Assembly: GCA_003056245.1 (NCBI GenBank)
Contig: MVDH01000006.1
Span: forward strand, 310,001-374,000
Length of the DNA stretch: 64,000 nucleotides
Source of the DNA: Cellvibrio sp. 79
Lineage (GTDB): Bacteria; Pseudomonadota; Gammaproteobacteria; Pseudomonadales; Cellvibrionaceae
Direction of reading: 5' to 3'
Shown here piece by piece: positions 4,142 to 46,266 of the stretch. Made by a program: the position numbers and the translations under genes. Every line of letters starts with the position of its first letter. Position 1 is the stretch's first letter. The notes under the pieces were generated by a model that did not search any database, was not told the origin of the DNA, and saw nothing but the letters and a program-made list of their open reading frames with translations.

Positions 4142-4326
4142 CCGGCTGGCTTTACACAGCAAACAGTCGCTTTACAAAACATCACCTTAACCAACAGTGC
4201 AAACTGTTATAGTGAAAACCGCTTTAAGCCTATCTGCAGTATTTGTTGTCCATGATTTGTTACCCATGACTTGCTGTTTATGGGATGACACCTTCGATAA
4301 AAGCGTTACGCTGGTTGAAAATATCT

Positions 4327-5508
4327 ATGTCTGTACCCGATTTGTCCATTTCTGACCGCAAGTCCCACGCTACCCCCGGTTTTGCCGAACAACTTTCCAC
4401 CCGATTGGCATTTTTAATTACCGGGCTAGCCATGTCCGCCTGGGCTCCATTGGTCCCGTTTGCACAAGCGCGATTGGGCGTGAATGAAGCCACGCTGGGC
4501 GCATTATTGCTATGCCTCGGCGGCGGCTCATTGATTGCCATGCCGTTGACCGGCCCATTGGTGAACCATTATGGCTGTCGTAAATTTATTACGCTTAGTT
4601 TGCTGTTGATGTGCATCAGCCTGGTATTTCTCGGTGTTGCATCCACCGTCCCTACCCTCGCGCTGACGTTGCTGATTTTTGGTATGTCACTCGGCGCAAC
4701 AGATGTCGCCATGAATATGCAGGCGGTCATTGTGGAAAAAGCCAGCGGGCGCAGCATGATGTCCGGCTTCCACGGTTTTTACAGTTTGGGAGGGATCTTT
4801 GGTGCGGTGATTATCAGCGGATTATTGTGGGTGTCACTCTCACCGTTTCAATCGTTATTAGCACTGGCAGTCGTTTTACTCGCGATGCTGATTTACACCG
4901 TCCCCAAATTATTACCCTACGGCAATAGTACCGATGGCAAACGCGAACCATTTTTTGTTTTGCCACGCGGAAAAGTACTGTTATTAGGTGCGCTGTGTTT
5001 TATTGTTTTTCTCGCAGAAGGATCGGTATTGGATTGGAGTGCGGTTTTCCTCACCCAGGTGCGCGCTGTAGATCCGGTACAAGCAGGCCTTGGTTTTGCG
5101 TGTTTCTCTGTTGCGATGACCATTGCGCGCTTGACGGGTGATCGTATCGTGCAACATTTGGGAGGCAAACGTATTTTGTTGTGGGGTGGCAGTTGCGCAG
5201 CGCTCGGTTTCGCGATTGTGGTTTTTGTACCGAATACGATTGCTGCTTACATTGGTTTTACGCTGATTGGTTTAGGCGCATCCAATATTGTGCCAGTACT
5301 GTTTACTGCCGCTGGCAATCAAAAATCCATGCCGATGGGCTTGGCTATTTCTGCGGTGGTAAGTATGGGTTACGCAGGATTATTAGCAGGACCGGCCTTG
5401 ATTGGTTTTATTGCGGAACTCAGCAGCCTTTCTATTTCATTTTTGCTTGTCGCTGCGGGCATGCTTTTATTAGCGGCTTATGCGACCAAAGTCACCAAAA
5501 CGGAATAA
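4327..5508 (+). CDS. MFS transporter, YbjJ-like
   Basis: This is an inner-membrane major facilitator with about 12 hydrophobic segments. The first segment, LAFLITGLAMSAWAPLVPFAQARLGV, and the later GFHGFYSLGGIFGA motif are typical of the YbjJ-like branch, whose substrates are poorly defined. An in-frame ATG lies 42 nt upstream at 4285. Neither start has a strong ribosome binding site, and 4327 is chosen because it already gives an N-terminal tail of about 25 residues before the first helix. The gene ends at a strong terminator and faces the carbamoyltransferase gene tail to tail. It could export the cluster product, but nothing in the sequence ties it to the cluster; it may simply be the last host gene on the left. 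Confidence 0.82.
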   Translation: MSVPDLSISDRKSHATPGFAEQLSTRLAFLITGLAMSAWAPLVPFAQARLGVNEATLGALLLCLGGGSLIAMPLTGPLVNHYGCRKFITLSLLLMCISLVFLGVASTVPTLALTLLIFGMSLGATDVAMNMQAVIVEKASGRSMMSGFHGFYSLGGIFGAVIISGLLWVSLSPFQSLLALAVVLLAMLIYTVPKLLPYGNSTDGKREPFFVLPRGKVLLLGALCFIVFLAEGSVLDWSAVFLTQVRAVDPVQAGLGFACFSVAMTIARLTGDRIVQHLGGKRILLWGGSCAALGFAIVVFVPNTIAAYIGFTLIGLGASNIVPVLFTAAGNQKSMPMGLAISAVVSMGYAGLLAGPALIGFIAELSSLSISFLLVAAGMLLLAAYATKVTKTE

Positions 5509-5580: not shown

Positions 5581-7329
5581 TTACACCAGTTCCGTTGCAG
5601 TTTTCGCAGAGGCGCTTTGCGGTAAATCTTTTTTGCGGATAATAAAATTATCAATCACCAGAAAATCGATTTTGGTACGCAAGAAAGTTTTCAACGCATC
5701 TTCCGGGCTGCACACAATTGGTTCGCGATCATTGAATGACGTATTCAATAACATTGGGACGCCGGTTAACGCCTTGAACGCTGAAATCAATTCATGGTAC
5801 TTCGAATTGGATTCAGCACTCACCAATTGAATGCGACTGGTTCCATCCACATGAACCACGGCCGGAATTAAAGCGCGCTGCTCCGGTTTTACCGGATAGG
5901 CCATCAACATATAGTGCGCGGCATCAGCATCTTTCCTGATATCAAACCATTGCTTCGCATCTTCTTTCAGCACGCTCGGGCAAAATGGGCGATGATCTTC
6001 ACGATGCTTAACCAGTAAATTCATACGCTTGACCATATCCGGATCACGCGGATCGGCCAGCAAACTGCGGTTACCCAACGCGCGCGGGCCAAATTCCATC
6101 CGCCCCTGAAACCATCCCACCACTTTGCCTGCTGCAATTAATGCAGCCACTTCGGTGGCAACATTTTCAGAGCGCTCATAAAGCAGATCAAACATACTCA
6201 AACTAGCAAGCACGTCCTCTTCTGAATAACCCGGTCCCAGATAAGTATCTTTTGATTCAAATGCCGGATTTTTATGGCCGTAGAAAATATTGTGATAGGC
6301 GTAAAGCGCCGCGCCCAACGCAGTACCCGCATCATTCGCTGCCGGTTGAATATAAATATTCTCAAACGGTCCCTGCTCAAAAATCGCGGTGTTGGCAACA
6401 CAGTTCAACGCCACACCACCCGCAAGACACACATTTTTGGACGGATACAATTGCGCGGCATGTTTAACAATGTTGAGTAAAATTTCACTGGTTAATTCCT
6501 GTAACGCAGCAGCAAGGTCCATGTAATCGCGTATAATCGCCGCTCGATCAGTCAACGCAGGCAAACCAAATACCTGTTCAAATGAGGCAAAATTATTTGA
6601 ACGGAATTGACATATATTGATATCCATCTCAAAGCCATCTTCATTCACTTTAACGAATTGATGGAATTGACTGATGAAACGTGCAGGATCACCAAAGGAA
6701 GCAAGGCTCATCACCTTACAGGCATCGTATTCACTCATCCCCATAAACATGGAAACCTTTTCCCACAATAATCCCAATGAGTTGGGATAATTGATTTCCT
6801 TCAGGGAAAATAATTTTCCATCGCGTGCGCCGCCAATAGTGACTGATTCGGATTCACCAATACCATCTATCGATATCACCGCCGCCTCTTTAAATGGCGA
6901 GGGATAATAAGCCGATGCCGAATGCGCAACGCAGTGGTCCACCCACATAAATTGGCCATTAAAACCGAGCGCACGGATTTGATCGGGAATACCAATTAAT
7001 TTTTTATAGAATTTCTTTTCACCTTCCGTTGTGCCCCACTCGCCATCTATACATTGTTCATTCAAATTAAGGTTGTTGTGCAAGCGCTTCAATGGGTTAA
7101 ACGAGAACGCAATAATATCGATATCTGACAGCAATAAATTTCCCATTTCCAGGCAAGTATTAATTGCCTGCCAGGGAATATCGTTGGGATTTTCGGTTAA
7201 TGCCGGTTTGGCATGTTTGACACGATTCAAACGCTCTTCTTCAATCGCTGCAATTAATTGGTTATCGCGGATTAATGCCACAGCGGATTCATGGTAGGCA
7301 CAATTCAGGCCGAGAATATTAATAGTCAT
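5581..7329 (-). CDS. NodU/CmcH-type carbamoyltransferase, copy 1
   Basis: Enzymes of this family move a carbamoyl group from carbamoyl phosphate, through a carbamoyl-adenylate, onto a hydroxyl (or amine) of a small molecule. The N-terminal Kae1-like domain begins ILGLNCAYHESAVALI, and VDHCVAHSASAYY holds the metal-binding histidines. The sugar-kinase-type fold continues through ISIDGIGE and CLAGGVALNCVAN. The C-terminal domain carries the family signature FGPRALGNRSLLADPR, with HREDHRPFCPSVL after it. The length of 582 residues is normal. It lies 56 nt downstream of the methyltransferase gene and is surely cotranscribed with it. A second copy of the same pair lies at 58818-61416. Plausible acceptors are the serine side chain or the beta-hydroxyl made by the megasynthase, but this is inference only. 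Confidence 0.92.
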   Translation of the reverse strand: MTINILGLNCAYHESAVALIRDNQLIAAIEEERLNRVKHAKPALTENPNDIPWQAINTCLEMGNLLLSDIDIIAFSFNPLKRLHNNLNLNEQCIDGEWGTTEGEKKFYKKLIGIPDQIRALGFNGQFMWVDHCVAHSASAYYPSPFKEAAVISIDGIGESESVTIGGARDGKLFSLKEINYPNSLGLLWEKVSMFMGMSEYDACKVMSLASFGDPARFISQFHQFVKVNEDGFEMDINICQFRSNNFASFEQVFGLPALTDRAAIIRDYMDLAAALQELTSEILLNIVKHAAQLYPSKNVCLAGGVALNCVANTAIFEQGPFENIYIQPAANDAGTALGAALYAYHNIFYGHKNPAFESKDTYLGPGYSEEDVLASLSMFDLLYERSENVATEVAALIAAGKVVGWFQGRMEFGPRALGNRSLLADPRDPDMVKRMNLLVKHREDHRPFCPSVLKEDAKQWFDIRKDADAAHYMLMAYPVKPEQRALIPAVVHVDGTSRIQLVSAESNSKYHELISAFKALTGVPMLLNTSFNDREPIVCSPEDALKTFLRTKIDFLVIDNFIIRKKDLPQSASAKTATELV

Positions 7330-7385
7330 GACTCCCTCTCAAAAAAAGTGTGATACCCGGATGGGCGACCTAACTGACAAACGCT

Positions 7386-8315
7386 TTATTTAATTCCCAG
7401 CGGGGTTTCCCAGGGTTCGTAAATTTTGGGAGTAAAGGAAATTTGCAGGTCAGGTGCAGTATTTTTTCGGTAGCGCAGGATGCACATATGCAAATGCGTA
7501 ATGCCATTCGTAGCGGCTTCTGCTTTCATCGCATCAATGACTGATCGATCCTGGCCAAAAATACCGACGAAGCGATCCACAAAAGCGGCGTAGGTGATGG
7601 GAGCCAAATCGCAAATAATTTCAGTCGCACCATGAGGCAAATATTTTTTGACAGCATCAACCAACATGCCCGGCACTTCCCTATCACCGGGAGCCATAGT
7701 CACAATTTGCAAAACACCCTGGTCGGACAACCGTGCATTGGCATCTTTCAGCAAATTTTCAACGAAGGTAAAACCGTAAATCCCCGCAGCGGAATTCAGG
7801 TAATAGTCCATACCGGGCGGAGTAGGTTCAAAAGGAGGGTTGGAAATAATCAGGTCAAATTGTTGATCCTGCACCGGCGCAAAAATAGATTGCACATTGC
7901 CATCGCGAATATGCAAACGATCGCTAACGCCATTTATCAATGCATTGAATCCGGCATACACTTTGGCCCTTGGGTTAATCTCCAGGCCAGTCACCATTGC
8001 AGCACCTTGCTGCAACGCAAATATGCTCAAGACGCCCGACCCCAAACCGACTTCAAGCACTTTCGCATCGTGCAAATCGGCAGGCAAAAGATAATCCATC
8101 ATGAAATATTGCTCAGGTTGCATGGGAATAACCTGGTCAACACCCTGATAATCAAATGGATCGGTAACAACACTCAGTTGTGAACCGGACTGCTTTGCAT
8201 CAAGCACTTGCTGCAACCAATCAATGCCGACAAACTGCGCATTTTGTTCAGAAAATGAATAATTGTTGATTTCGCCTTTCAGGCTATAAATCTGTACATC
8301 TACAACATGGCTCAT
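7386..8315 (-). CDS. class I SAM-dependent methyltransferase (HemK/PrmB-like), copy 1
   Basis: The Rossmann SAM-binding motif is VLEVGLGSGVLSI, followed by the acidic GLEINPRA strand, and motif IV is ISNPPFEPTP. An NPPF/NPPY motif is found in enzymes that methylate nitrogen in a planar group (HemK, PrmB, N6-adenine enzymes), so an N-methyltransferase is likely, though not certain. The N-terminal ~55 residues are a small extra domain, and the core starts near VTDPFDYQG. It is the first gene of a leftward two-gene operon with the carbamoyltransferase, divergent from the chorismatase-NRPS operon. Its paralogue at 60595 shares the motifs IQPEQ/MQPEQ, NPPFEPTP, YYLNSAAGIYG and IVTMAPG. The substrate is unknown; a peptide intermediate or its building block is plausible. 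Confidence 0.85.
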   Translation of the reverse strand: MSHVVDVQIYSLKGEINNYSFSEQNAQFVGIDWLQQVLDAKQSGSQLSVVTDPFDYQGVDQVIPMQPEQYFMMDYLLPADLHDAKVLEVGLGSGVLSIFALQQGAAMVTGLEINPRAKVYAGFNALINGVSDRLHIRDGNVQSIFAPVQDQQFDLIISNPPFEPTPPGMDYYLNSAAGIYGFTFVENLLKDANARLSDQGVLQIVTMAPGDREVPGMLVDAVKKYLPHGATEIICDLAPITYAAFVDRFVGIFGQDRSVIDAMKAEAATNGITHLHMCILRYRKNTAPDLQISFTPKIYEPWETPLGIK

Positions 8316-9103: not shown

Positions 9104-10138
9104 ATGAACAGTTTTAATGTCTTGGCCCCCAGCGCCAGTTTTCATGAAGGTGAAATACCTGTCAGGTACACTCAGGACAATAATGTTCTCGGCGTAGTGT
9201 CCTACATTCCCGATGACCAATATTCACCATCAGGCGACCTTCCTCATTTACAAGTCCAGATTCCATCGGAACACAGGATCACCCTATCCGAAATTTGGCG
9301 AAGCGCCGCTAATGTCACGCGCGGGCATTGGGAATCCATTGATTTCAGCCACGACGGGGAATTGTTGTTTGGTGCAATCAGTTACGCGGTTGATGATGGT
9401 TTGATTCACGCAAATCAAACTGAAAAAAACTTTCGCAATATTTTTCGTTTGATTAACGAACAGGGATACCCGCATTTGTTTCGTATGTGGAGCTACATTC
9501 CGGGGCTTAATCAGGACAACAGTGACAACCTGGAAATCTATAAAGATTTTTGCTTTGGGCGATCTGAAGCATTCTCCGCTGAATTTTCACGCTCGTTAGC
9601 CCAGGTTCTACCCGCTGCTACCGGCATAGGCTCCTGCGCAAGAAAAGTCGCGGTATATTTTCTTGCCAAGAAAACGCCTGATTTAATTCATATCGAAAAC
9701 CCCATCCAGATTCCAGCCTATAAATATCCACCGCAATATGGCGTTAAAGCCCCTTCTTTCGCACGCGCGACCTATGTGCCCTTCGGCAATGGCGAATACC
9801 GCATGTATTTATCGGGCACGGCAAGCGTTGTTGGCCACAGCTCCCACCATCCGGATTCAATTGAAAAACAATGCGAAACAACGTTGCTGAATATCCAACG
9901 ATTGATTGATGCAGACAACCTGAAAAATTACGGCATCGAGCATCCGGTTAACCTGGTTGATCTCGACATGATCAAAGTCTATATCCGCCACCGCCATGAT
10001 TTTGCGGCAGTACAACGCATTTGTTCTGCGTTCTTCAGACCGGGCACATCGGTTATTTATTTGCATGCGGATATCTGCCGCAAAGATTTGCTCATTGAAT
10101 TGGAAGGTATTTTTAGCGGCAGCCGATCAGCCAGCTAA
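9104..10138 (+). CDS. chorismatase (FkbO/Hyg5/XanB2-like)
   Basis: Chorismatases hydrolyse chorismate to pyruvate plus a dihydroxycyclohexadiene carboxylate, 3-hydroxybenzoate, or a mix of 3- and 4-hydroxybenzoate, depending on subtype. Family motifs seen in order are FRMWSYIPGLN (near 125-136), IYKDFCFGRSEAF, ATGIGS, IENPIQIPAYKYPPQYG, APSFARA, LSGTASVVGHSSHHPD (near 245) and, at the end, LHADICRKDLLIELEG. The length of 344 is normal for the family. I cannot settle the product subtype by eye. It is the first gene of the rightward operon, 136 nt before the FAAL-ACP gene, so the likely role is to supply a chorismate-derived starter acid to the assembly line. The older automatic name for such genes is pteridine-dependent deoxygenase-like. 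Confidence 0.85.
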   Translation: MNSFNVLAPSASFHEGEIPVRYTQDNNVLGVVSYIPDDQYSPSGDLPHLQVQIPSEHRITLSEIWRSAANVTRGHWESIDFSHDGELLFGAISYAVDDGLIHANQTEKNFRNIFRLINEQGYPHLFRMWSYIPGLNQDNSDNLEIYKDFCFGRSEAFSAEFSRSLAQVLPAATGIGSCARKVAVYFLAKKTPDLIHIENPIQIPAYKYPPQYGVKAPSFARATYVPFGNGEYRMYLSGTASVVGHSSHHPDSIEKQCETTLLNIQRLIDADNLKNYGIEHPVNLVDLDMIKVYIRHRHDFAAVQRICSAFFRPGTSVIYLHADICRKDLLIELEGIFSGSRSAS

Positions 10139-10274
10139 TCAAGCTATTGATTGCCCGGATGACTCAGAAAACACACAGTCAATAAACATACCGGCAATTA
10201 ATCTGCTTGTTATTAATCACAGCACTTTTTATCAAAACATTTTTTTCTCAAAGCACTTTTATAAGAGCATTGTC

Positions 10275-12206
10275 ATGTTAATCACTGAAAAATTGTTGGC
10301 GAATCGCGAATTACTTAATAACAAACCATTATTTATTACCCTGGATAGCAATGGGCAACAGAGCAAAACCCTGGGCTATTCCGACTTTATGGATCAAACC
10401 CTGGCTTTAGCTTCATGGCTAAACACCCGGGGTTACAAAAAAGCGGTATTAGCCTATGGCCCGGGCATTGATTTTATAATCAGTTTTTACGCCTGTTTGT
10501 TTGCAGGGGTTATTGCCGTACCACTGCCTGAAATTACTGAAGGAACACTTACTGCAGATCTGCAAAAATTAAATATTGTTAGTGGTGATATTGGTGAATG
10601 CGTAGTGTTAACTGATTATGAAGCACATCAGTTATTAACCTCGCAAGCGGGGCTCCATGCAAATATCAGCACTATTGTTGATACCACCACTATATCCGAC
10701 CTCACATTACAACAAGCATTACCTGCGCTTAAACAAGATGATATCGCCTGTTTACTCTATACCTCAGGCTCAACCGGCGCCCCCAAAGGCGTAATCATTC
10801 GTCACAAGGATTTTTATTACAACGCAGCATCACTTGCAGAAGCCAGTGCATTTACATCAGCAAGTATTGGTGTTAGCTGGATGCCGCAGTACCACTCATT
10901 TGCATTGGTGTTTAATGCACTTTTACCTGCTTATGCAGCAGGTACAATGGTTCTGCTTGCACCCTATACATTTATTGCGCAACCCTATCGCTGGATACAG
11001 GCGATCTCTGAATATCGCGCAACCCACAGCGCAGCACCTACATTTGGTTATTTACAAGCCGCAAGAAATTGTACGGATGAACAATTGGAAAGCATTGATT
11101 TATCCTGCTGGCAAGTGGGATTAATTGCCGCCGAACCGATCAAATCATTTGTTTTCGATACATTCTTTAAACGTTTTGCATCGAATGGCCTGGAAACAGA
11201 ATTCCTCAAACCACTGTATGGTCTCTCAGAAACCGGCCCGATCAGTTGTGTTAGCCACCAACAGGCACCTTTTTTCAAATCAGAAAATACCCGCGCGCAA
11301 TCATTAAGCAATGCCTGCCTGGGTAGCGCATTTCCCGCTACAAAAATTGTTTGCGTAAATCCGGACACCAAACAAATTTGCGACGATCTGGAAGTGGGGG
11401 AAATTTGGGTTAGTGGCCCCTCAGTAAGCTCCGGTTATTGGCGTAATGATGAAATTAATGAGCAAGTATTTAATCAAACGCTCGCCACCATTCCCGGCGA
11501 TTTTTTTCGCACCGGCGATCTCGGCTATCTCTGGAACAATGAGCTTTACATTACCGGGCGACTTAAGGAAATATTGATTATCAATGGCAAAAATCACGCC
11601 CCCCAGGAAATAGAATGGGCTGTTCAACAAGTCTCCCCCTTGTTGGCCAATAACGCCACCGCCGCGTTTTCAGTGGCAACACGCGAAGGTGAGAAAATCA
11701 TATTGGCCCAGGAAATTACCGAAGAAATTGCGGCCACACCTTCCAATATTGACGCTATTTATAAAGCGGTATTACAGGCGGCATACCGCGTGCATCACAT
11801 TCAATTGGCAAGTGTGATCTTTGTGCCCGTTGGTTCAATTCCACGCACAGCGGGTGGAAAAATTCGCAGAAGTTATTGCAAGGAATTATTCGAACAACAG
11901 CAGCTACCCTTGCTGGCAATTCGTACCAAAGATGATGCGCTTACGGTAAGTATTCCGGCACAGAGAATACAACCTTCATCCGGTAATCCGTTGGAAGACC
12001 AGCTCTATGCCCTCTTCCTGAAAAAGTTATCGCTGGATCTATTACCGCACGATCTTGAACTGGATGCATTTAATCTCGATTCTTTGCAAGTGGCTGAATT
12101 GGCCGCGTCGATTGAATCCACATTCAAAATTTCGTTTCCGCCAACCCTTCTGTTCAAATACAAAAACTTTCAGTCTATTTATAGCTACATCGAAGCGCGC
12201 ATGTAA
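10275..12206 (+). CDS. fatty-acyl-AMP-ligase-like (FAAL) protein with C-terminal carrier domain
   Basis: 643 residues. The AMP-ligase part (about 1-560) has YTSGSTGAPKG (tyrosine near residue 162), SWMPQYHSFALVF, YGLSETG, FFRTGDLGY and GRLKEILIINGKNHAPQEIE. The last matches the FAAL form rather than an amino-acid A domain. The C-terminal ~75 residues are an acyl-carrier domain with phosphopantetheine serine 603 in NLDSLQ. It should activate a carboxylic acid as the adenylate and load it on its own carrier for the first C domain of the megasynthase. The substrate is either a fatty acid or the hydroxybenzoate made by the gene before it. The frame is open back to 9996, but the upstream part overlaps the chorismatase and has no homology; ATG 10275 starts the ligase fold. 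Confidence 0.88.
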   Translation: MLITEKLLANRELLNNKPLFITLDSNGQQSKTLGYSDFMDQTLALASWLNTRGYKKAVLAYGPGIDFIISFYACLFAGVIAVPLPEITEGTLTADLQKLNIVSGDIGECVVLTDYEAHQLLTSQAGLHANISTIVDTTTISDLTLQQALPALKQDDIACLLYTSGSTGAPKGVIIRHKDFYYNAASLAEASAFTSASIGVSWMPQYHSFALVFNALLPAYAAGTMVLLAPYTFIAQPYRWIQAISEYRATHSAAPTFGYLQAARNCTDEQLESIDLSCWQVGLIAAEPIKSFVFDTFFKRFASNGLETEFLKPLYGLSETGPISCVSHQQAPFFKSENTRAQSLSNACLGSAFPATKIVCVNPDTKQICDDLEVGEIWVSGPSVSSGYWRNDEINEQVFNQTLATIPGDFFRTGDLGYLWNNELYITGRLKEILIINGKNHAPQEIEWAVQQVSPLLANNATAAFSVATREGEKIILAQEITEEIAATPSNIDAIYKAVLQAAYRVHHIQLASVIFVPVGSIPRTAGGKIRRSYCKELFEQQQLPLLAIRTKDDALTVSIPAQRIQPSSGNPLEDQLYALFLKKLSLDLLPHDLELDAFNLDSLQVAELAASIESTFKISFPPTLLFKYKNFQSIYSYIEARM

Positions 12207-12307: not shown

Positions 12308-15300
12308 ATGCTGAACGAGTATCCATCGGGCAATACCCAATCCTTTCCGCTCTCACATCCACAACAACGCATTTGGTTTGCAGAAATTATCAACCCGAAC
12401 AGCGGTGTGGGAAACCTTGTTGGTCATTCGGAATTTCAACAGCCAATTGATAGTCAATTACTTGAGCAGGCTATCAATACCCTGATCATGTCGGCTGATA
12501 CGTTACGTTTACGTATTCAAACCACCCAAGATGGCGTGGGACAATATGTTGCGAGTTATGAAACCATTGCGCTGAAAGCACTGGATTTTTCTACTGATGA
12601 GCAATTCCGGCAACACATTGATACGTTGATCCGCTATCCCTTCGCTGTTGATAACACACCCTTATACTATTTTGAATTGATTCGTGTAGCAGGCCAGCCT
12701 GCGCGCCTGGTGTATTGCTTCCATCATGTAATTATGGATGCAGCCAGTATGAAAATTACCATTGATGCCATCTATGATAATTATCGCCAGCTTGCGGGCG
12801 GGCGGGCATGTTTGCCACTGGAAGGCCAGGATTATCGCAACTACCTGAAGTATGAAGCCAATTATCTTTCGTCAGAAAAATGCGCGCGGGACCAAAAATT
12901 CTGGGCGAAAAAATTAGACAATTATGAAGAAACAGCGCGAATTAAATCGCTGGGTAAAGCTGTTTCAGTAAACGCCGACCGGGTGGAATATAATCTTGAT
13001 CAAGCGCTTAATCAGAAAATCCAGGATTTTTGCAAACATGAAAAGACCTCGGCTTATCGTTTATTAATTGCAGCCTACTATGTTTATCTGAGCCGTTTGT
13101 CTGGTCGTAGGGATACTATTATTGGAACGGTTTTCCACAACCGTTTTAATCTGGAATTTTGCGACAAGATAGGCATGTTTGTCAGCACCACACCGGTACG
13201 GCTAACGATTGAAGAAACAACTTCGATCAGTTTTCGCGAACTACTCACGCTCGTTGATACCGAAGTCGAACTGGCGCAGCACCACCAGGATTACCCCTTT
13301 GACTTGCTGATCCAGGATCGCAAAAAAAATGGCATGGATGCACCATTATTTGAAGCCGCCATCAGTTATCAAAATTCTTCTTTTATATTACCAACGGAAT
13401 TTCACTTCCAGAAAGCACAGGAATTCCCGCTGGTCATTCATCTTTCCCATCGTGGCGCTAATAATCAGTTAAAGCTCGAACTGGATTATCAAACCGATTA
13501 TTTTTCAAACACAGAAGTTTCTGCACTCTGTAAACATTTGCTCACTGTTATCGAAGGCGCTATTGCCAACCCGCAGACAGATATAGAAAAGCTCGCAATA
13601 CTAACGCGCGATGAACACGATAAACTATTAAATACCGAACACCTCAATCAATTTAAACCGCAGCACACCATCACTGAATTATTTGAACAACAAGTTGTCA
13701 GCAACCCGCATTCAGTGGCAGTGGTGAATGGCGAAAAATCCATTACTTATAAAGAGCTTAATGAACATGCAACCCGACTCGCTGCAAGGTTGCAAGCACT
13801 GAACGTCACGCGCGAAACCCTGGTCGCTATTTTATTACCCCGCTCCACCGACATGATTATTGCCATGCTCGGCGTTATCAAAGCCGGCGCGGCTTACTTG
13901 CCAGTAGATCCTGATTATCCACAAGATCGCATTGAATTTATGTTGCAAGACAGCGACGTTTCGCTGTTGATCACAACTACAGAACTAGCAAGTAAAAGCC
14001 AAACTATATGCAACACACTGCTAATCGATAACTTGCCGGATGAAACGTTTGCATACCAATTTATTAAGGGTAAACCAGACGATTTGTTTTATGTAATTTA
14101 TACCTCGGGTTCAACCGGGCGTCCAAAAGGGGTTGCCGTTGAACACGCCAGTTTTGAAAATCTCATTTATACGCACCGCCGTATTTATTCCGGGAATTCC
14201 AATGACCGTATGAGCCAGGTTGCCAGTGTCAGTTTTGATGCGATGGCATTTGAAGTCTGGCCCTGCCTCACCAGTGGCGCCACACTTTATATTGTGGACG
14301 ATGAAACCCGCCTGGACCCAACTGCATTAAAACAGTGGCTGGTGCACAACAAAATTACCGTGAGTTTTCAATCTACATTGATGGCTGAGCGTTTACTGGA
14401 AGAAGAATGGCCAACTGAAACCGCGTTGCGTTTCTTGCGCACCGCTGGCGATAAACTTAATCGTTTTCCATCACAACAATTGCCTTTTGCTGTGCACAAT
14501 CTTTATGGGCCAACAGAAGATACTGTGTGGACCACCTTGGCTGATGCATCCCGGGCAACAAATAACCATGATGTTCCTGATATTGGTTATGCGCTGGATA
14601 ACAAACATATTTTCATCCTCTCCAAACGCAATCAGCTTTTACCGCAGGGCTGTATTGGTGAATTATGTATTGCCGGTGCCGGCCTCGCACGTGGCTATAT
14701 CAATCAACCGGAACTAACTGCACAACGGTTTATTTCATTGCAGCTTCCAGCTGACAATAAAACGCTGCGCGTTTACAAAACCGGCGATCTGGCCCGCATT
14801 AAAGAAAACGGTGCGCTCGAATTTATTGGCCGAAATGATAACCAGGTAAAAATTCGCGGATTCCGTATCGAACCCGGTGAAATTGAACAACAGTTGATTA
14901 ACCTGCCGCAGGTTCAGGAAGCCGTCGTAATACCGCTCGCGGATAAAAGCGGCAGCAATTACTTGTGCGCTTACTTCACCGCAACTGAAACATTATCTGC
15001 TATTCATCTTAAAAAGATACTCGGCCAGTATTTACCGGATTACATGGTACCAGCAGTATTTTTGCAAATTGCTGCAATGCCATTAACTCGCAATGGAAAA
15101 ATCGATCGCCGGGCCTTACCAGCACCGCAGCATGAACTAACGCCGATAACGTCGCACACACCGATGACTGCATTGGAGTTACAGCTGTGTGAAATATGGC
15201 GATCGCTATTACCGGTTGCCAATATTACAAAAGAGGACAATTTCTTTAACCTTGGTGGACATTCGTTTAAAGCGGTGGCGATGGTTTCATTAATTCGCCA

Positions 15301-18300
15301 ACAGCTGGAAAGGGAAATTTCGGTAAAAACAATTTTTGCCCACCCTACCCTCGCGGCATTGGCCAGTGTGCTTGAAAGCACTGGCAGTAAAACCTTATCA
15401 ACAATTCCCGTGGCGGCGGCCAGGCAATATTATCCGGCATCATCGGCACAAAAGCGTTTATTTGCATTAAGCCAGATTAATTCCGAAAAAATTACTTACA
15501 ACATTCCTGCGGTGTATAACATTTTGGGGCCATTGGATTATCTGAAGCTGAAAGAGGCGCTACACCAGTTAATCCAGCGTCACGAATCCTTACGTACATC
15601 CCTGGCATTTATTAATGGCGAGGTGATGCAAACTATTCATCATCAAGCTGATGTCAGCACCACTATTGAATTTTTTTCCGGTGCTGCCGGGGACATTGAC
15701 AATTGCATTCATAATTTCACGCGCCCCTTCGATTTAAACCAGGCTCCGCTGCTGCGTCTGGGCGTTTTTTCTGTCGATGATTACCAGCATGTATTAATGA
15801 TTAATGTTCACCATGCTGTTGCCGATGGAATATCACTGAGCATTTATTTGCAAGAATTAGCAGCGCTCTACCAGGGAATAGTTTTACCGCCACCGCGCTT
15901 GCACCATAAAGATTACAGCGAATGGGAACTTGGCGAAGACTACGCTGCGATTACCCGTCAACAACGCGAATTCTGGTTGTCACTATTGCCGGATAATTTA
16001 CCGCTATTGGATCTGCCAACAGATTATTCCCGTCCCGCCAAATCATCTTACCGGGGGAAAAGTTTACATCTCGAACTTGCTCCCGCGCTCGCGGAAAAAT
16101 TGCACAATGCCTGCCAGCAACAAGGCTATACGCTTTATATGGTTACCCTGGCGGCGTTCGGGATTTTGTTGCACAAATATTCGCGCCAACAGGATTTAAT
16201 CATTGGCACTCCTGCTATGGGGCGCCAGCATCCCGATCTGCAAACAGTGACCGGCATGTTGGTAAATACACTGGCTCTGCATTTGACACCGACTGCAGAC
16301 AGCACGCTAAAAAATTATCTTGGACAGATCAAACAAATGGTTATCGGTGCCATTGATAACCAGGGCTTTTTATTTGAAGAACTACTCAATCATATCAATC
16401 CGGTAACAGATAATTCACGCAATCCCGTCTTTGATGTGTTTTTCTCATTGGTTACTGAAGAACTGGGGCAATTTTCATTGCCGGGCACGCAAACAACACC
16501 GCGTGAATTTGAATTTCCTATTGCCAAATTTGACCTGTCACTTACCGTTTATGAGCGCGCAACGGGAATCGACCTCACCCTTGAATACGCAACCGATTTA
16601 TTCAAAGCAGAAACAGCACAAACGTTATTGCAGCATTATCAGATGGTTATCACGCAACTCGGTGATTACCTGGCAGGTTCCGATACACAAGATATTGCCA
16701 AACAGATTGGTGAATTAACGCTTGTTGATGATTTTGAAAAACACATCTTGCTCGGTGAATTCAATAACACGGCGAAAGAATACCCAATCGAACAAACGCT
16801 AAGCCACGTATTTGAAACACAGGCAAACAAAACCCCCGACAATATCGCCGTAGCATTTGCCGATAGCCAATTAACCTACGAGCAACTGAATGCCCGCGCA
16901 AACCAGCTCGCGCGGCACTTACGCGACCTGGGTGTAAGTCGCGATAAAATTATTGCCGTAGTATTGGAACGCAGCCTGGAATTACCCGTTGCACTTTTCG
17001 CTATTTTAAAAGCGGGAGGCGCATACCTACCTATTGGTCCAAACCTGCCGCAAGACAGGATTGATTACATGCTTGACGATAGCCAGGCACAGTTAGTAAT
17101 CAGCCACAGTCAATTTTCAACACAACTGGAGAATTTTTCCGGCCAACAGTTATTGATTGATCAATGGTTGTTGCAAGGCGATTTATCGAGCATCGATAAC
17201 AATAATCTTAATGCAAACAGCGGCCCTGATGACCTGGCTTATATTATTTACACATCGGGCTCTACTGGTCGCCCGAAAGGTGCAATGATCGAACACCGCG
17301 CGGTATTAAATCGAATTTTCTGGATGCAGGATCAATATCCGCTAACCGAACACGATGTGATATTGCAAAAAACGCCCTACACTTTTGACGTATCTGTTTG
17401 GGAATTATTCTGGTGGTCATTTGCCGGAGCCTCAGTTTATTTCCTTGCGCCGGATGCCGAAAAAGATCCGCAAGCTATTTTCAGTTGTATCGACGAACAA
17501 AAAATTTCTGTTTTGCATTTTGTGCCGTCCATGCTGAATGCATCATTGGAATATTTATCCGCTAGCACGCTGGGCTCGCCAACAATGTCTGCTGCTCATA
17601 AACTGCAGAGCCTGCGTAATGTATTTGCCAGCGGCGAAGCGCTGAGCCCGGCCCAGGTAGAAAATTTCAATCGGCTTATCCATACAAGTTCTGGTGCACA
17701 GCTGATCAATTTATACGGCCCCACTGAAGCGGCAATTGATGTCAGTTGGTTTGATTGCCCGACTTCCGGAACGATTACACGCATACCAATCGGAAAACCC
17801 ATCAGCAATATCCGGTTATATATTCTGGATGAACAACAGCGTTTGGTTCCGCGCGGTATCGCCGGAGAATTGTATATTTCAGGCACTGGTGTTGGCCGTG
17901 GTTATATTAATAAACCTGAATTGAGTAACGAAAAATTTATTGCCGATCCATTTTTCAAAAATGTGCGTATGTATCGCACTGGCGATTTATGTCGCTGGCT
18001 GGACGACGGTAATATTGAATATCTGGGGCGCCTTGATCATCAGGTAAAAATTCGCGGTTACCGCATTGAACTGGGAGAAATCGAAAGTCGCCTGCTCGGT
18101 CACTCACGTATTCGCGATGCGGTTGTAATAGCACGGCAAGATGCGCAAAACGAAAGCTACTTGTGTGCGTATGTAGTGGATCGCACAACGACAGCAGATC
18201 CACATGCATTAACAGCGGAGCTGCGTAATTACCTGGCGCAATGGCTACCGGATTATATGGTGCCAGCCAATATCCAGGTACTCGATACTATGCCGTTAAA

Positions 18301-21300
18301 TGCCAGCGGCAAAATTGATCGACATGCCCTGCCTGAACCGGATCAACAACTCGACGATATCAGTGCAAATTATTGTGCGCCGGAAACTGCGCTTGAAAAA
18401 CAACTGGTGCAACTCTGGGAAACTGCATTGGGGCGCTCACCGATCGGGCTTAACGACGATTTCTTTGCGCTGGGTGGAAGTTCTTTATCGCTAATACGCC
18501 TGTTGTCGTTAATCACTAATACATTTGGTGTGTCATTACCCCTATCGACTTTTTTTGAAACGCCGATATTGCGTGATATCGCTGCCGTTATTGCTGCGAG
18601 TGGCGATCATTCCGCACACATTTCCATTCCTGTTGCGCCCGAAAAAATCTGGTACAAAACCTCGGCCAGCCAACAGCGTATGTATATCCTCGATCAATTT
18701 GAAGAGGCATCGCGCAGTTACCTGATTACTGCCCTGTTCAGGATTCAGGGCAAACTGGATAGCGCAAAACTGGAATCCAGTTTCCGTCAATTAATTAATT
18801 TGCACGAAGTCTTGCGCACGCGCTTTAGTGTGCAAGGCAACAGCATCATGCAAACTATTGATGCTGATGTTACTTTTGCACTGGAACACCTAAAGCTACC
18901 AGAACAATCAGATCGAAAAAAACCATTAGAAAACATTATCAACGACTGCTTGCAACCATTGGATCTGGCATGCGCGCCCTTGATGCGTGCATCACTTATT
19001 GAGGAGCATCCTGACAATTACTGCCTGGTGATTCATTGGCATCACATTATTGTCGATGGTGTTTCGATAAACCTGTTGTTAAAAGATCTTGCCGATTTGT
19101 ACAACGGCGAAACCCCGGCGAGCACCAGCATAACCTTTAAAGATTATGCCGAATGGGAACAGAGCGATGAATATGCAACACTGATCAACGATGATAAAGC
19201 TTACTGGCTTGCAGAATTCCAACGCGAAATTCCCACGCTGACATTAGCCACAGACTTTAAACGACCTGCACAACGCAGTTTTGCCGGAGATCGCATAAAA
19301 CGGGAAATTCCCGCGTCATTAATGGATGCGGCTCAACAATTTTCCGAGCACCAGGGTTACACCTTGTTTATGACGCTGCTGGCTGCACTCAATATATTGC
19401 TTCATAAACATACACAACAGGATGACATTATTGTTGGTACTCCGGTCGCGGGCAGAAGCCTGGGTAACTGCGATGAAATTTGCGGAATGTTTGTTAACAC
19501 CCTGCCGTTGTCTTCCCCTATTGATAGCCGTAAAACGTTCACTGATTACTGTGAGCAGGTCAAACAAAAAGTATTGTTGGCGTTGGAACATCAGCAATAT
19601 CCATTTGACCACCTGGTAGAACAACTGGATATTCCACGCGATACCAGCCGCAACCCGATGTTTGATGTAATGTTCGCCCTGCAAAATCACGGTGAGCAAC
19701 AACTTTCATTGGATCATCTGGATACTTCGCCACTGATTTGTCCTTTACCCATCGCGAAGTTTGATTTAACGGTAACGCTGTTTCAGCTAACCAATAATAT
19801 CCTGTGCGATTTTGAATTCTGCACGGATCTATTTGATTCGCGTACCATCGAAAATCTGGCAGACCAATACCTCTATACCTTGCAAACATTTATCAGCGCA
19901 CCCCATTTAATAATTGACGAGTTTCATCTTGCAGATGCGCCATTAGCGTTAACACCAATTGCAAACACTAACAACTCACAACCAACCAAACCAATCCACC
20001 TGTTATTTGAAGAGCAGGTTGCGCTAACGCCGGATGCGACTGCGCTGGTGTTTCAGAATACATCAATTACTTATGCCGAACTGGATAAGTACGCTGAACG
20101 GATTTGCGCACAATTGCTTAATGCAGGTGCGGGCCCCGAGAAATTTGTGGGTGTGATGCTGGGCCGCAGCCCCGGATTAATCGCAAGCCTGCTAGGAATT
20201 TTCAAGGCCGGAGCAGTTTATTTGCCCATAGACCCTGAATATCCGCTGGAGCGAAAAGCCTATCAATTGCAGGATAGCCAATGTGACTTATTAATCGGTC
20301 GCGCTGATGTCGATATCCCGAAACACTGGAGCGGTAAACTACTCTCGATAGACGATATTTTTTCCGGAAATGCAGAACAAGAAAAAACCGTTGTTAATCA
20401 GAAACCATCATACGCGTTGACCGATGTTAAACCGGAAAGTGCGGCCTATTGTATTTATACCTCGGGCTCGACCGGAACGCCGAAAGGTGTGGTTGTAGAA
20501 CATCGCAATCTGGCGAATGTTATTCATGCCCAACGCGAATTCTACGGTATCAATACCAAAGAAAAGGTGTTGCTTTTTGCCGCGCCGGTTTTTGATGCGT
20601 CACTGGAGCAAATATTTGTTGCACTGACTTCAGGTGCAACCCTGGTGATTGTCGATGATGAAAACATTCGCGATCATTTACTGATGCAAAACATTATTGC
20701 AGAACAGAAAATAACTCACCTGAATGCGGTGCCTGCATTTTTAAACTTGCTGGAACCACAAACATTCCCCGCGTTAAAACGTGTGGTATGCGGAGCCGAT
20801 ATTTGCTCGCCGGAACTTGCCCGCAAGTGGTCAGCACATTGTCAATTTATTAACGTGTATGGTCCTACGGAGGCCGCAATATCCAGCACCGTACACAGTG
20901 TCGATGCCACCAGCTTTATCCTGCCATCGATTCCGATTGGTCGCGCCATTGCACAAACAACAACGCATGTGGTGGATAACAAATGCAGACCCGTCGCTGA
21001 TGGTATGCCGGGTGAATTATGTATTGGCGGCGCCGGTGTTGCGCGCGGTTATTTAAATAATCCTGAATTAACTCGCGAAAAATTTATTGCATCACCACTG
21101 GACAACACCGATCGCTGGTATCGCACTGGCGATAGGGTGCGCCGCAATCTGCAAGGAGATCTGGAATATTTGGGGCGCATTGACGCGCAGGTAAAAATTC
21201 GCGGCTTCCGTATCGAGCCCGGCGAAATTGAAACAGTTCTAGCCACCTACCCCGGTGTTATTCAAGCAGCAATAGCCGTGAAAGAAGATGCACATCGAGG

Positions 21301-24300
21301 TAAATTCCTGTGCGCTTATTATGTTGCGGAGCGGGAATTTCCGGCACAACTGCTGCAAGATTTCCTTGCCAGCCATTTGCCCCATTACATGGTGCCGGGA
21401 TGGTATTTGCGCCTTGCTGAATTACCACTCACTGCCGGTGGAAAAATTAATCGCCAGCTATTGCCAATGCCTGATCGCGATTCAATAGCCCATGGCAATG
21501 CAATTTCCACTGAGCCCGGCGCAATTGAAAATCACACTGCACTTGAACAGCATTTGCTGGATTTATGGAAAAGCCATTTGGGAGTATCAGCCCTTGGAAT
21601 TGACGATAATTTCTTCCAGGCTGGAGGTCACTCCATCACGGCTACACTGATCTGCGCCCATATCCAGAAAATCCACGCGATTAAAATTCCGCTCAAGGAA
21701 TTTTTCCGCCTTGCAACGGTACGCAAGCTGGCAAGTTATTTATCCAATCTTTTGGAAACTCCAGCCTGTCAGCAAAACAGAGTTCCAATATCACAACAAA
21801 TCGGTCTGGTATCTGTAACAGCACGAGATCATTATCCCCTGTCAAAACAGCAACAAGGGATTTATGTATTGTCACTGTTTAATCCGGAAGAAACACATTA
21901 CAACATTCCATCTGCGTATCAGATCCGCGGCTCGCTGGATATTTCAACATTAGAGCAGGCAATTGACAGCCTTGTACAAAGGCATCATGCATTGCGCAGC
22001 AATTTCAAACTAATCGATGGCGAACCGGTTTGTATTGTAAGGCCACATAAAAATATTTCATTGCATACGGAAATAGTAGTAACCGCAGACCAACAACAAA
22101 TACAAACGCAACTTGATGCGTTTGTAAAACCGTTTGACCTGGCCAATGATTCACTGTTTCGTTGCTTATTGCTGCGTTGCGCTGAAGACCACCATATTCT
22201 CGCACTTGATATACACCATATTATTGCCGATGGTACAAGCTTCCAGTTGCTGCTGGCAGAACTGCACGCCGCTTACACTGGCGCGTCATTGCCAAGGGTA
22301 GAATTCCAATATACCGATTACGCGGTATGGCAACATACTGAAGCAGCAAAGCACATGTTGGACCTACAGGAAAACTATTGGCTCGAAAAATTAATCGATT
22401 TACCGTCGCTGGATTTAAAAGCGGATTACCCGCGCCCGCATATCCAAAGCTTCGATGGCGATTATGTAGAGTTTGAATGGAACCAGGAAGAATCAGCGCA
22501 CATCCATGCCTTCGCCCATCAATTTCAAGTAACTCCCTTCACGCTATTCTGTTCTGCATTTGCATTACTGCTACAAAAATATACTAGCCAGCAACACATA
22601 GTATTAGGGACGGTTACCGCGGGGCGTGAAGAGCACCAACTGCAACATATATGGGGGATGTTCGTAAATACCCTGGTGCTTAAACTTGATGTAAACAATC
22701 ATTTTTCATTTGCAGATTATTTGCAGGCGGTGCAAACGGAGGTACTGGAAAGTTTCGCCCATCAGCAATATCCGTTTGATAAATTGGTACAAAAACTGGA
22801 TATTTCGCGCGACACCAGCAGGAATCCAATTTTTGATGTGATGTTTACGTATCTGGTTATGGGCACACCAGAAAAATTATTAGGCATGGAGGAATTTGCG
22901 CCGCTGAAAACCGGGCATACTTCAGCCAAAAATGATTTGTCGCTCAATGGTTATGAACTCGACGGAAAAATCCTGTTCAATATTGAATATTGCACACGCA
23001 TTTTTTCCCGTGCGCGTATTGAACGCATGGCCGGTCATTTTAAAAATCTTGTTCGCCAGATTATTACCCGGCCAAATCATCTACTACAAAATTTGTCGAT
23101 ACTGGACCGCGCTGAATACGCACAACTAGTCCATGGTTTTAACCAAACCGCCGTTGACTACCCGCGCGAAAAAACTATCGCACAAGCTTTTCGTGAGCAG
23201 GCATTAAAAACACCTTATGATCTTGCCTGTTATTACGAGGGTCATACACAAAACTATAGCGAGCTGGACAATACCAGTGAACAAGTAGCGCAATACTTAC
23301 ATCAACAATTCAATATTGGCCCCGGTGATATAGTGGCCTTATTATTCAAACGCTCGCTACGGATTCCGCAAACTATTTTTGCGGTGCTTAAAACCGGTGC
23401 AGCCTATTTGCCATTGGACCCGGATTATCCCGATGAACGAATTCGCGAAATACTGGAAAGCTCGGCAACGGGTTTGTTACTGACTGATGATCAATCATTG
23501 GCAGGACATAACCTTAGCGCAGTAAGGGTTTTAAATCTGGATCAATTGGATACCAGCACCAACACTATTCATACAACCGCTTCACTCCCAATGCCGACGG
23601 CAACAGATCCCGCCTATATTATTTATACCTCCGGCTCCACCGGGAAACCCAAAGGCGTAGTTATTAACCAACGCGGAGTACTCAATCTTTCCGAGTGGTT
23701 TAACCGTACCCACGATTTACACAATAACCGTCATGTATTGCAAATGACCAATTATTGTTTCGATGTATCAGTTGAAGAAATTATTATTCCACTCTTATAC
23801 GGCGCGGCTATTTTTATACCGGCGGATCAAATCCGTCTGGACAAATCGCAACTTCTGGATTTCATTCGCCGGCATCAGATTAATATTGCACAACTGGTAC
23901 CCGGTCTGCTGCATGATTATTTAATTGAAAGTCCGTTTATGGATTGCCTGAAGCGAGTTATTGCCGGTGCGGAGCGATTGGACCCGGTATTAAAAGATGC
24001 GGTGATAGCCAAAGGTTATTCATTATTTAACAGCTATGGCCCGACTGAAGCTACAGTAACCGCCTGCGGTACACTGTGCATTCCCGGGCGCGACATTATT
24101 GGCAAACCTGTGGCCAACACTCGCATTTATATCCTGGATTCCAATAATCATCCTACGCCGATTGGCGTTCCCGGCGAGCTTTGTATTGCCGGTGATTTAT
24201 TAGCGAGCGGCTATTTAAATGATGCGGCGATGACTGCTGCAAAATTTGTGGACAATCCGTTTGAAGCAGGTGCAAAAATGTATCGCACCGGTGATCTTTG

Positions 24301-29493: not shown

Positions 29494-30153
29494 ATGTCCA
29501 CTATGCAAATACCGCCCTTACACCCTGATCCAAATGCTGCCTACCCTTGCGAGTTTGCAGGCAATTCGATTGGTTTTTTGAAAAACCTGGTCACTAATCC
29601 ACTGATTAGTGTTGGCGACTTCACTTATTACCATGGTGATACCGTCGATCAATTCCAGGAAAAAAACGTGTTGTATCACTACCCGCATTGCGGTGATAAA
29701 TTGGTGATCGGGCGCTTTTGCCAGATTGCCAATGGAACCCAATTTATTATGAATGGTGCGATTCATCCACTTCACGGTGTTAGCACTTTTCCATTCGATT
29801 TATTTGGTGGTGAGTGGACGCGCATAGGTATGGAAAATTTCCAACCACCTAACAAAGGGGATACCTGTGTTGGTAACGACGTATGGTTTGGTAAAGGTGC
29901 ATTGATAATGCCGGGAGTCAATATTGGCAATGGCGCGGTGATTGCTTCGCATGCGGTGGTGACAAAAAATGTGCCCGACTACGCAATTGTTGCTGGCAAT
30001 CCTGCACGTATTGTACGCATGCGTTATTCAGATGAAGATATTAAACGCTTGCAGGAAATTGCCTGGTGGGATTGGCCGACTGAAAAAATAACACAACACA
30101 TTCCTGACATTATGCAAGGCAATATCGACCGGTTGGAACAAGCAAAAAAATAG
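29494..30153 (+). CDS. hexapeptide-repeat acetyltransferase (Vat/CatB, XAT family)
   Basis: It is a left-handed beta-helix acyltransferase of 219 residues. It shows FCQIANGTQFIMNGA, an IHPLHGVSTFPF segment that aligns with the catalytic-histidine region of streptogramin and chloramphenicol acetyltransferases, VGNDVWFGKGALIMPGVNIGNGAVI, and the ending AIVAGNPARIVRMR. The enzyme moves an acetyl group from acetyl-CoA to a hydroxyl. Its ATG is 2 nt after the megasynthase stop, with GGAG just inside the upstream gene, so translation is coupled. Being the last gene of the NRPS operon, it is either a tailoring enzyme or self-protection by acetylating the product. Which of these holds cannot be read from the sequence. 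Confidence 0.88.
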   Translation: MSTMQIPPLHPDPNAAYPCEFAGNSIGFLKNLVTNPLISVGDFTYYHGDTVDQFQEKNVLYHYPHCGDKLVIGRFCQIANGTQFIMNGAIHPLHGVSTFPFDLFGGEWTRIGMENFQPPNKGDTCVGNDVWFGKGALIMPGVNIGNGAVIASHAVVTKNVPDYAIVAGNPARIVRMRYSDEDIKRLQEIAWWDWPTEKITQHIPDIMQGNIDRLEQAKK

Positions 30154-37963: not shown

Positions 37964-37992
37964 TTTTTGCGGCTATTTGTTATGGCTATCGA

Positions 37993-38652
37993 TTAAAAGC
38001 GAAAGGTTCCGGTCAACGAGACCAGATCAGCTTCCTGGGTATCGAAGTAAATACGGCGCACCCCCAAACCAAGACCAAACTTCTCTTGAATCGGCAGCTC
38101 AAAGCGAACGCCGACGATAGGGTCTTCACCGCGATCACGCTTGATGGCTATAACCTCGTTTTCCACATCAACCTCACCGCGCCAGATAAAAACACCTATC
38201 TCGCCAATAACGCGGAACCCGTCGGCCGGATTCAGGGTTAACCCTTGCACCAGCGTAAAGCCCTCTGCACTGAACGGATATTCCTGGCCGATATGCCAGG
38301 GAATAGTCCCCAGGTTAGTTTCTCCGGCCACCGTGAGGTCCACGTCTACTTCTCCAAGATCAAGGTAACCAATTTCGGTGGATGCGTGCTGGTCCCACTG
38401 GTAGCCAAACGCCAATTGGTAACCGGTGCGATTGGTATCGTAACGATCAATGATCAGATCATAATTCGCGGCCGCCAGCGCCGCCGTGAAATCCTCTTCA
38501 CGCTGGCTGCTGGAGACATTCGAAGCATCAATCCGCAAGTAAGGACCGGATGCCGCCTGGGTGGCAATGCTCGCCAGAATCGTTACAACGCCAAGTGCTG
38601 CGGCAATGATTTTTCCTTTAACTTTGCTCTGCGAAGAGACACGTTTAACCAT
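37993..38652 (-). CDS. outer-membrane beta-barrel protein, internal start inside the giant frame
   Basis: This is the last 219 codons of the 2699-codon frame, listed separately because the sequence supports its own translation start. ATG 38652 is preceded by GGGAGG with 7 nt spacing. The first ~33 residues are a full signal peptide (basic start, then KIIAAALGVVTILASIATQA, cleavage before SGPYLRID). The rest is an eight-strand-like barrel with FGYQWDQHASTEIGYLDLG and a terminal phenylalanine (TGTFRF) for BAM insertion, as in OmpA-like/OprG-like small barrels. No stop codon separates it from the GlyGly-CTERM-like tail just before. Either it is made both as a fusion and alone, or a stop codon was lost. 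Function of the barrel unknown. Confidence 0.65.
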   Translation of the reverse strand: MVKRVSSQSKVKGKIIAAALGVVTILASIATQAASGPYLRIDASNVSSSQREEDFTAALAAANYDLIIDRYDTNRTGYQLAFGYQWDQHASTEIGYLDLGEVDVDLTVAGETNLGTIPWHIGQEYPFSAEGFTLVQGLTLNPADGFRVIGEIGVFIWRGEVDVENEVIAIKRDRGEDPIVGVRFELPIQEKFGLGLGVRRIYFDTQEADLVSLTGTFRF

Positions 38653-46092: not shown

Positions 46093-46266
46093 GCTGCCAC
46101 TCCCAATATCATTGCAATATGTTCAGAAAAATCGTAGGGAAACGCCTGATTTAAAACGCTAAAGATCTGCTCCATCCCACGTATTTTTGTTATCGGACAC
46201 GAAGCCCACCTGTACAAAACCTTTATGGGCATATGTACAGGCGCGCTTTAAAACTCACGCGTTTGC

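Follow-up and report, generated by a model that had tools for sequence, protein, structure and literature searches.

Why do a methyltransferase (MT) gene and a carbamoyltransferase (CT) gene stand side by side twice in one stretch of bacterial DNA, each time next to a different nonribosomal peptide synthetase (NRPS)? The question is raised by a window of 64,000 nucleotides (nt) of Cellvibrio sp. 79 (contig MVDH01000006.1, positions 310,001 to 374,000), the whole stretch analysed here, which carries the pair MT1 and CT1 (cassette 1) in cluster 1 and the pair MT2 and CT2 (cassette 2) in cluster 2 (Table 1). As a tentative but favoured answer, we propose a two-gene tailoring cassette for NRPS products, in which the CT would carbamoylate a seryl side chain and the MT would N-methylate, most likely at the new carbamoyl group. 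The MT family and the CT as a fixed NRPS cassette, as well as the predicted N-methylcarbamoyl residue, seem to be new; no paper on such a cassette or residue was found in the open literature, most subscription papers lying outside this search.

Two Old Copies of One Gene Pair

A preceding interpretation made from the letters alone, referred to here as the sequence-only reading, placed an MT gene followed by a CT gene at 5581–8315 and at 58818–61416 and named four peptide blocks common to both copies. Open reading frames (ORFs) lie at precisely those coordinates, all on the minus strand, and all four blocks are present in each copy. The gaps measure 56 nt between MT1 and CT1, 13 nt between MT2 and CT2, and 43 nt between CT2 and the adjoining NRPS gene. 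Aligned as proteins, the two CTs are identical at 311 of 578 positions (54%, one gap position) and the two MTs at 130 of 267 (49%, E 5e-92). At the DNA level, the cassettes are alignable only as five pieces of 64–76% identity, and the divergence of the two copies is, by this comparison, therefore old. A recent duplication was considered and ruled out: the copies are 49–54% identical as proteins, and orthologues in other genomes are far closer. Cassette 1 is 94–96% identical to its orthologues in two Cellvibrio genomes (G016 and G029) and 76–81% in a third (G027), and is present at 95% in the laboratory strain Cellvibrio mixtus J3-8, a carrier of cluster 1, while cassette 2 is 92–94% identical to its orthologue in G029. 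A third full MT gene was not found in the genome's own assembly, in which the extra match spans 65 residues (E 2.7e-4).

Occurrence and Phylogeny of the Pair

Eleven close MT homologues were found, comprising six in Cellvibrio (two in G000, one each in G016 and G027, and two in G029) and five in four records of Mycetohabitans rhizoxinica. A CT gene adjoins every one of them, one of these CTs being a 343-aa C-terminal piece in a broken locus rich in insertion sequences (IS), and NRPS or adenylation-domain DNA likewise lies beside all 11. The gene order is MT–CT in Cellvibrio and CT–MT in Mycetohabitans, and MT identities between the two lineages are 48–52%. Among CT matches in the genus Cellvibrio, 7 of 13 are other CTs without an adjacent MT, two of which are located in cluster 2, approximately 8 kb from the pair. 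M. rhizoxinica HKI 454 has the pair twice, and its second copy is the broken one, accompanied by NRPS pieces and nearby IS elements (L007:18795–31415).

A plasmid search with MT1 matched 30 records, 20 of which were listed; four cover at least 80% of MT1, all from Mycetohabitans, and the other 26 matches, weaker and partial, stand outside the count of 11. Genome contigs were scanned with two N-terminal peptide patterns, which would miss Mycetohabitans, and 3 of 49 candidate stretches proved to be relatives, originating from two Cellvibrio-like records. An MT profile matched in 4 of 144 family genomes (E 1e-20), and at E 1e-25 it matched the own genome only among 369 class, 293 order, and 398 phylum genomes, drawn with overlap. 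In the family of G250, guessed to be Burkholderiaceae (eight DUF4148 matches), none of 399 genomes matched the profile, a result that says little without a positive control, and 130 pattern matches in viral contigs included no relative of the pair. Within this thin sampling of genomes, the pair proved rare. The sequence-only reading named the presence of the pair near NRPS genes in many genomes as a result that would support it, and only Cellvibrio and M. rhizoxinica turned up; its conservation elsewhere near NRPS genes is nevertheless borne out by the recurrence in Mycetohabitans.

In the CT tree, the pair CTs and the CT of Streptomyces clavuligerus plasmid pSCL4 form one group (100/99), within which Mycetohabitans is the partner of S. 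clavuligerus (100/98) and Cv1 of cluster 1 that of Cv2 of cluster 2 (100/99); judged from these sequences, this group extends beyond the CTs of the MT–CT pair. The MT tree, poorly resolved as it is, sets the pair MTs apart from two distant outgroups (100/100) and joins Cv2 to Mycetohabitans (80/99). The matching topologies anticipated by the sequence-only reading were thus not recovered, as the CT tree joins Cv1 and Cv2 and the MT tree joins Cv2 and Mycetohabitans. An origin of the MTs or of the CTs from unrelated branches, which would have spoken against a common pair, was not seen in either family, and the notion of a fixed pair is upheld by the grouping of the MTs, by that of the CTs together with one S. 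clavuligerus CT, and by the CT gene adjoining each close MT homologue.

Tree roots are midpoints, and sampling differed between versions. A first CT tree, lacking S. clavuligerus, L036, and L037 and including an over-long Gemmatirosa ORF, separated the pair CTs from the rest by a single branch (98/99); this split was lost in the final CT tree, which drops seven rows (NodU_Brady, Leising2, Cv2_third, BradyCT2, Cell_L033, the Mycetohabitans fragment, and Gemma) and adds S. clavuligerus. The final MT tree omits NodS, PrmB, and a Rhodococcus row, and in the earlier tree including them the pair MTs did not fall on one side of a branch. On pSCL4 (L009:15001–19286), genes of a TauD-type dioxygenase and a glycosyltransferase come after the CT of the same group, and no MT or NRPS was found in the 31.7 kb examined around it.

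Family and Fold of the Two Enzymes

Both CTs score above cut-off with the Pfam models Carbam_trans_N and Carbam_trans_C (178.7 and 238 bits for CT1; 185.5 and 228 bits for CT2). The family motifs HxxxH (the metal motif), GGVxxN, FGPRALGNRS, and NTSFN are all present in both Cellvibrio CTs of the window and in three intact CTs of Mycetohabitans that were scanned. With CT1 alone as query, the solved structures of NovN, GdmN, and TobZ, which are O-carbamoyltransferases, were matched at E 2.9e-91 to 2.6e-76. The evidence for the CT family assignment is strong, and carbamoyl transfer is the predicted activity; NodU/CmcH-type CTs make carbamoyl-AMP from carbamoyl phosphate and ATP. Identity with NodU itself was ruled out: CT1 and CT2 score 160.5 and 157.6 bits against an equivalog cut-off of 1000 (NF041651), on which a rhizobial NodU, as reference, scores 1019.

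The MTs match class I methyltransferase models of Pfam, MTS being the best, and among curated models PRK14968 and HemK2/MTQ2 come first, under cut-off. The motif [DN]PP[FYW] takes the form NPPF, within NPPFEPTP, in all 10 pair MTs scanned. Two family identities were rejected. Membership of the HemK, PrmC, or HemK2 families fails because both MTs miss the cut-offs (TIGR00536, TIGR00537, TIGR03534, and PRK14968.1-3), the TIGR00537 scores being 48.7 and 66.4 bits against a cut-off of 87. Regarding NodS, its model NF041650 is absent from the 20 families of MT1 and from the best 25 of 27 for MT2, and the identity to NodS, which lacks the [DN]PP[FYW] motif, is 27% over 94 aa.

AerE is the best match among solved structures for the predicted models of MT1 and MT2, followed by an amine methyltransferase. 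AerE is an asparagine side-chain N-methyltransferase, and AerE and PoyE are reported to methylate peptide side-chain amides, AerE acting on the peptide in an extended form (PMC11285071). Residues Y137, D141, and N231, mutated in the AerE structure entries, would correspond by alignment ranges only (offset 73) to approximately P64, to the invariant E68, and to a position on or beside N159. Searches of solved structures with MT sub-fragments did not return AerE among the best matches. These models make an amide-type nitrogen the most likely target of the MT.

One Chromosomal Site with Different Assembly Lines

The cassette stays at one chromosomal site in Cellvibrio while the adjoining assembly line differs. 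The genes of alpha-glucan phosphorylase (82%) and purU (97%) flank the pair both in the window and in G027, where its CT and MT are 81% and 76% identical to those of cassette 1. The NRPS of G027, with the domain order C-A-T-C-A-T-E-C-A-T-C-A-T plus a tail, is approximately 36% identical at best to that of cluster 1 across long stretches, and nothing within the 60 kb examined in G027 matches the chorismatase or the loader of cluster 1. A transporter-like ORF has counterparts close to the cassette in three further Cellvibrio genomes (91%, 93%, and, in G027, 82%); in G027 it lies on the other side of the NRPS than in the window. The second adenylation (A) domains, A2, of cluster 1 and G027 are 68% identical, every other pair of A domains between the two lines reaching at most 47%. 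Residues 1628–1934 are 66–88% identical to G027 in 50-residue windows (at least 74% in 10 of 11), the remaining A2 domain is 44–66% identical, and the flanking condensation (C) and carrier-protein (T) stretches are 22–46% identical. The conserved A2 core may reflect retention or A-subdomain recombination.

The two A2 domains share the code DVWHFSLIDK, which we take to be serine by published codes. Mycetohabitans (Myc) A4 has the code DVWHISLIDK, and the NRPS pieces beside the broken second Mycetohabitans copy include DVWHLTLIGK, such that a serine or serine-like code occurs at four of five distinct pair loci. The link between a serine code and the pair is suggestive only.

Proposed Role and Alternative Readings

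In the favoured mechanism, the CT would first carbamoylate a hydroxyl on a side chain of the peptide, either during its growth or after its release, the likeliest acceptor being seryl. Thereafter, as suggested by fold and motif, an NPPF MT resembling AerE or HemK2 would N-methylate a planar primary amide nitrogen. The simplest joint reading would have the MT act on the fresh carbamoyl group, because O-carbamoylserine (-CH2-O-CO-NH2) is isosteric with glutamine (-CH2-CH2-CO-NH2), and would yield an O-(N-methylcarbamoyl)seryl residue, which would imitate the N5-methylglutamine that HemK-type enzymes produce. We infer the acceptor, the order of the steps, and the action of both enzymes on the same group. 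The idea of the sequence-only reading that the pair furnishes one N-methylated and carbamoylated chemical unit fits the families; its free building block is less likely than the tailoring of a residue.

Several points weigh against this proposal. Regarding the MT, the identity to AerE is 16–19%; the models have a mean pLDDT near 65 and were both built with the same five input sequences; by sequence, the best solved relatives are TrmM and CARM1, and for MT1 a gentamicin methyltransferase and HemK also rank ahead of AerE. Regarding the acceptor, cluster 2 has no serine code, its codes being DASTAAAVCK, which we take to be Tyr/Phe-like, and DTQDVGEITK, and a comparison of its A domains with neighbours in the PDB gave no clear substrate. 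Serine modules are common in NRPSs, Cv1 and G027 represent one locus in one genus and are not independent, and the conserved A2 core counts against the proposal if it arose by recombination. The CT tree places the S. clavuligerus CT inside the pair group, yet neither MT nor NRPS was found within approximately 15 kb of it. Furthermore, codes with an acid at position 239 or 278 (those of Cv1 A3 and A4, Cv2b, Myc A2 and A3, and G027 A4, and, in the broken Myc copy, DTGDLGAIAK) occur at five of five pair loci, one more than the serine-like codes; such an acid may point to a cationic or a Gln/Glu-type substrate. Counting these acidic codes slightly lowered our confidence in the proposal and in its serial form described below, and slightly raised that in an amine acceptor.

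The nearest competitor, doubtful as it is, assigns the two enzymes to separate sites, the CT acting on one group and the MT on another (an Asn or Gln amide or an amine) of a product family that needs both. In crocagin, CgnL is the enzyme that methylates the N terminus once it is freed, and carbamoylation falls to CgnI, the order being unknown (PMC10070186). The genes nodS and nodU are likewise adjacent, and the MT fold would also suit a direct Asn/Gln amide methyltransferase, the second-best fold match being an amine methyltransferase. DTQDVGEITK of cluster 2 and DTEDLGVVTK of Myc A2 share positions with glutamine-type codes; against separate sites, no confidently readable Asn or Gln code is common to the pair loci.

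Somewhat less likely than the cassette proposal as a whole is its specific serial form, in which the CT and then an AerE/HemK2-like MT would modify one and the same seryl residue of an NRPS product to give O-(N-methylcarbamoyl)serine, the cassette being kept while assembly lines are exchanged.

It is rather improbable that the CT carbamoylates an amine instead (a side chain of Orn, Dab, or Dap, or the N terminus), giving a ureido group, and that the MT methylates that or another nitrogen: the acidic codes at all five pair loci are a possible cationic-substrate mark, but the solved relatives of CT1 are O-carbamoyltransferases, and an acid at 278 is found in Gln/Glu-type codes as well, which makes the code reading uncertain. 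We consider it quite improbable that the pair makes a free carbamoylated, methylated amino acid to be loaded by an A domain, as the sequence-only reading proposed. G027 does keep the pair while its assembly line differs; the sole near-identical code between loci, however, is an ordinary serine code, and AerE is reported to act on an extended peptide (PMC11285071). Finally, a chance neighbourhood of unrelated tailoring genes, for which the rarity of the pair and the CTs without adjacent MT in S. clavuligerus and the genus Cellvibrio might be adduced, is very improbable: each of the 11 close MT homologues, which come from two bacterial orders and show both gene orders, has a CT at its side, and the MT identity between lineages excludes recent copying.

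Should the cassette proposal hold, it would provide an enzymatic route to peptide N-methylcarbamates and a natural glutamine mimic. The predicted mass shift on one residue is +43.006 (carbamoyl) +14.016 (methyl) = +57.021 Da, applicable to several NRPS clusters for which no products were found. Because the cassette occupies a fixed chromosomal site in Cellvibrio while the adjoining assembly line differs, it offers a handle for genome mining.

Surroundings of the Two Cassettes

Table 1. Genes and domains of the two clusters in the window (L017 positions lie past its end).
Feature	Position	Strand	Basis and remarks
MT1, class I S-adenosylmethionine methyltransferase, NPPFEPTP motif	7386–8315	-	309 aa; Pfam, curated models, predicted structure
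CT1, NodU/CmcH-type carbamoyltransferase	5581–7329	-	582 aa; Pfam, solved-structure matches, motifs
MT2, second methyltransferase copy	60595–61416	-	273 aa; 49% to MT1
CT2, second carbamoyltransferase copy	58818–60581	-	587 aa; 54% to CT1
Transporter-like ORF, major facilitator superfamily by inspection without family search	4285–5508	+	putative exporter
FkbO/Hyg5-type chorismatase	9104–10138	+	TIGR04444, 337.4 bits, cut-off 325
Acyl-AMP ligase + carrier protein (T), putative loading protein	9996–12206	+	Pfam and curated models
NRPS-polyketide synthase (PKS) of cluster 1: four C-A-T modules, KS, KR, T, TE	12308–29491	+	domain scan
Adenylation domain 2 (A2) of cluster 1, code DVWHFSLIDK	16811–18313	+	68% to same-code G027 domain
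NRPS downstream of CT2: adenylation + condensation-family domains	55391–58774	-	Pfam
NRPS upstream of MT2, C-terminal part (end of A, T, condensation-family)	61682–64000	-	rest in L017:1–2610

The sequence-only reading set cassette 1 beside an NRPS-PKS started by a chorismatase; the chorismatase, the loader, and the NRPS-PKS line are all present, and the line runs divergently from the cassette. The listed loader ORF overlaps that of the chorismatase, and the true start of the acyl-AMP ligase protein therefore probably lies further in than 9996. The PKS module comprises KS, a RhiE-like KS linker, and KR, and is perhaps of the trans-AT type, as no acyltransferase is among the 14 Pfam families listed for the protein. 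The transporter-like ORF may serve as an exporter. Directly after the synthetase lies an acetyltransferase gene of the Vat streptogramin A type (29494–30153; 255 bits vs. a cut-off of 300), and a TonB-dependent siderophore receptor adjoins the cluster (31408–33699; TIGR01783 above cut-off, the best model, FauA, below its own). Further along, a 2699-aa protein with FG-GAP, fn3, and He_PIG repeats and an OmpA-like part (37993–46917) adjoins a phage tail collar-domain protein.

Cassette 2 sits between two NRPS ORFs, in agreement with the sequence-only reading in so far as an NRPS locus is concerned; the A-T-E-like architecture that it described was not confirmed, the protein at 55391–58774 consisting of A and Condensation-family domains. 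A scan for the HH...D motif found no match in the last, Condensation-family domain of this protein. The NRPS upstream of MT2, completed past the window end, starts with a formyltransferase-like domain, and this opening domain suggests an N-formylated start. Cluster 2 extends past the window end (L017:3875–12219) with genes of a third CT (CT3), a polysaccharide deacetylase, a PhyH dioxygenase, a C39-type ABC transporter, HlyD, and a GT2 protein with a chitin-synthase match, a set reminiscent, by Pfam, of nodB/nodC/nodU. In the first, larger CT tree, the nearest companions of CT3 are NodU and a CT from Leisingera. The PhyH dioxygenase could be the source of a hydroxyl. Beside the synthetase is a gene of the aminoglycoside 3-N-acetyltransferase family (54268–55293; 78% in G029). 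Cluster 2 (54268–64000) is AT-rich, with a GC fraction of 0.40 vs. 0.50 in 36545–52181, and this low value is consistent with a separate acquisition.

Comparison with Known Systems

The rhizobial nodS and nodU resemble the Cellvibrio pair in being adjacent MT and CT genes, found in L044 in the order nodB-nodC-nodS-nodU-nodI, and the CT superfamily is the same. The best models in L044 are NodS and NodU, its NodS scoring 294 against its own cut-off of 300. These enzymes decorate one secreted molecule, the Nod factor, a lipo-chitooligosaccharide; by contrast, NodS is a different MT, CT1 is 31% identical to NodU over 268 aa, and the partner in Cellvibrio is an NRPS. TobZ, NovN, and GdmN represent the two-domain family of CT1, to which CmcH belongs as well; the acceptors of all four are a sugar, an ansamycin, or a cephem and not NRPS peptide residues. 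HemK2/MTQ2 and PrmC, which act on release factors, are among the closest curated models of the MTs and have an NPPF/NPPY-type motif, although their cut-offs are missed. AerE and PoyE, of the aeronamide and polytheonamide pathways, are linked to the MTs by the best fold match of AerE to both, but belong to ribosomal pathways and share only that 16–19% identity; we know of no carbamoyltransferase partner for them.

Heinamides, which are of the laxaphycin B type within an NRPS-PKS family, contain O-carbamoyl-homoserine, whose carbamoyltransferase is not assigned to the cluster and on which no N-methyl is named in the part of the source available to us (PMC8471579). Crocagin, set beside the Cellvibrio pair by description and not by sequence, differs in being a ribosomal peptide methylated by CgnL at its N terminus, and resembles it in that a separate MT (CgnL) and CT (CgnI) N-methylate and carbamoylate one peptide product (PMC10070186). 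The opinion of the sequence-only reading that no established pathway has this pair accordingly gives way, with nodS-nodU and the crocagin enzymes CgnL/CgnI standing as known MT–CT pairs.

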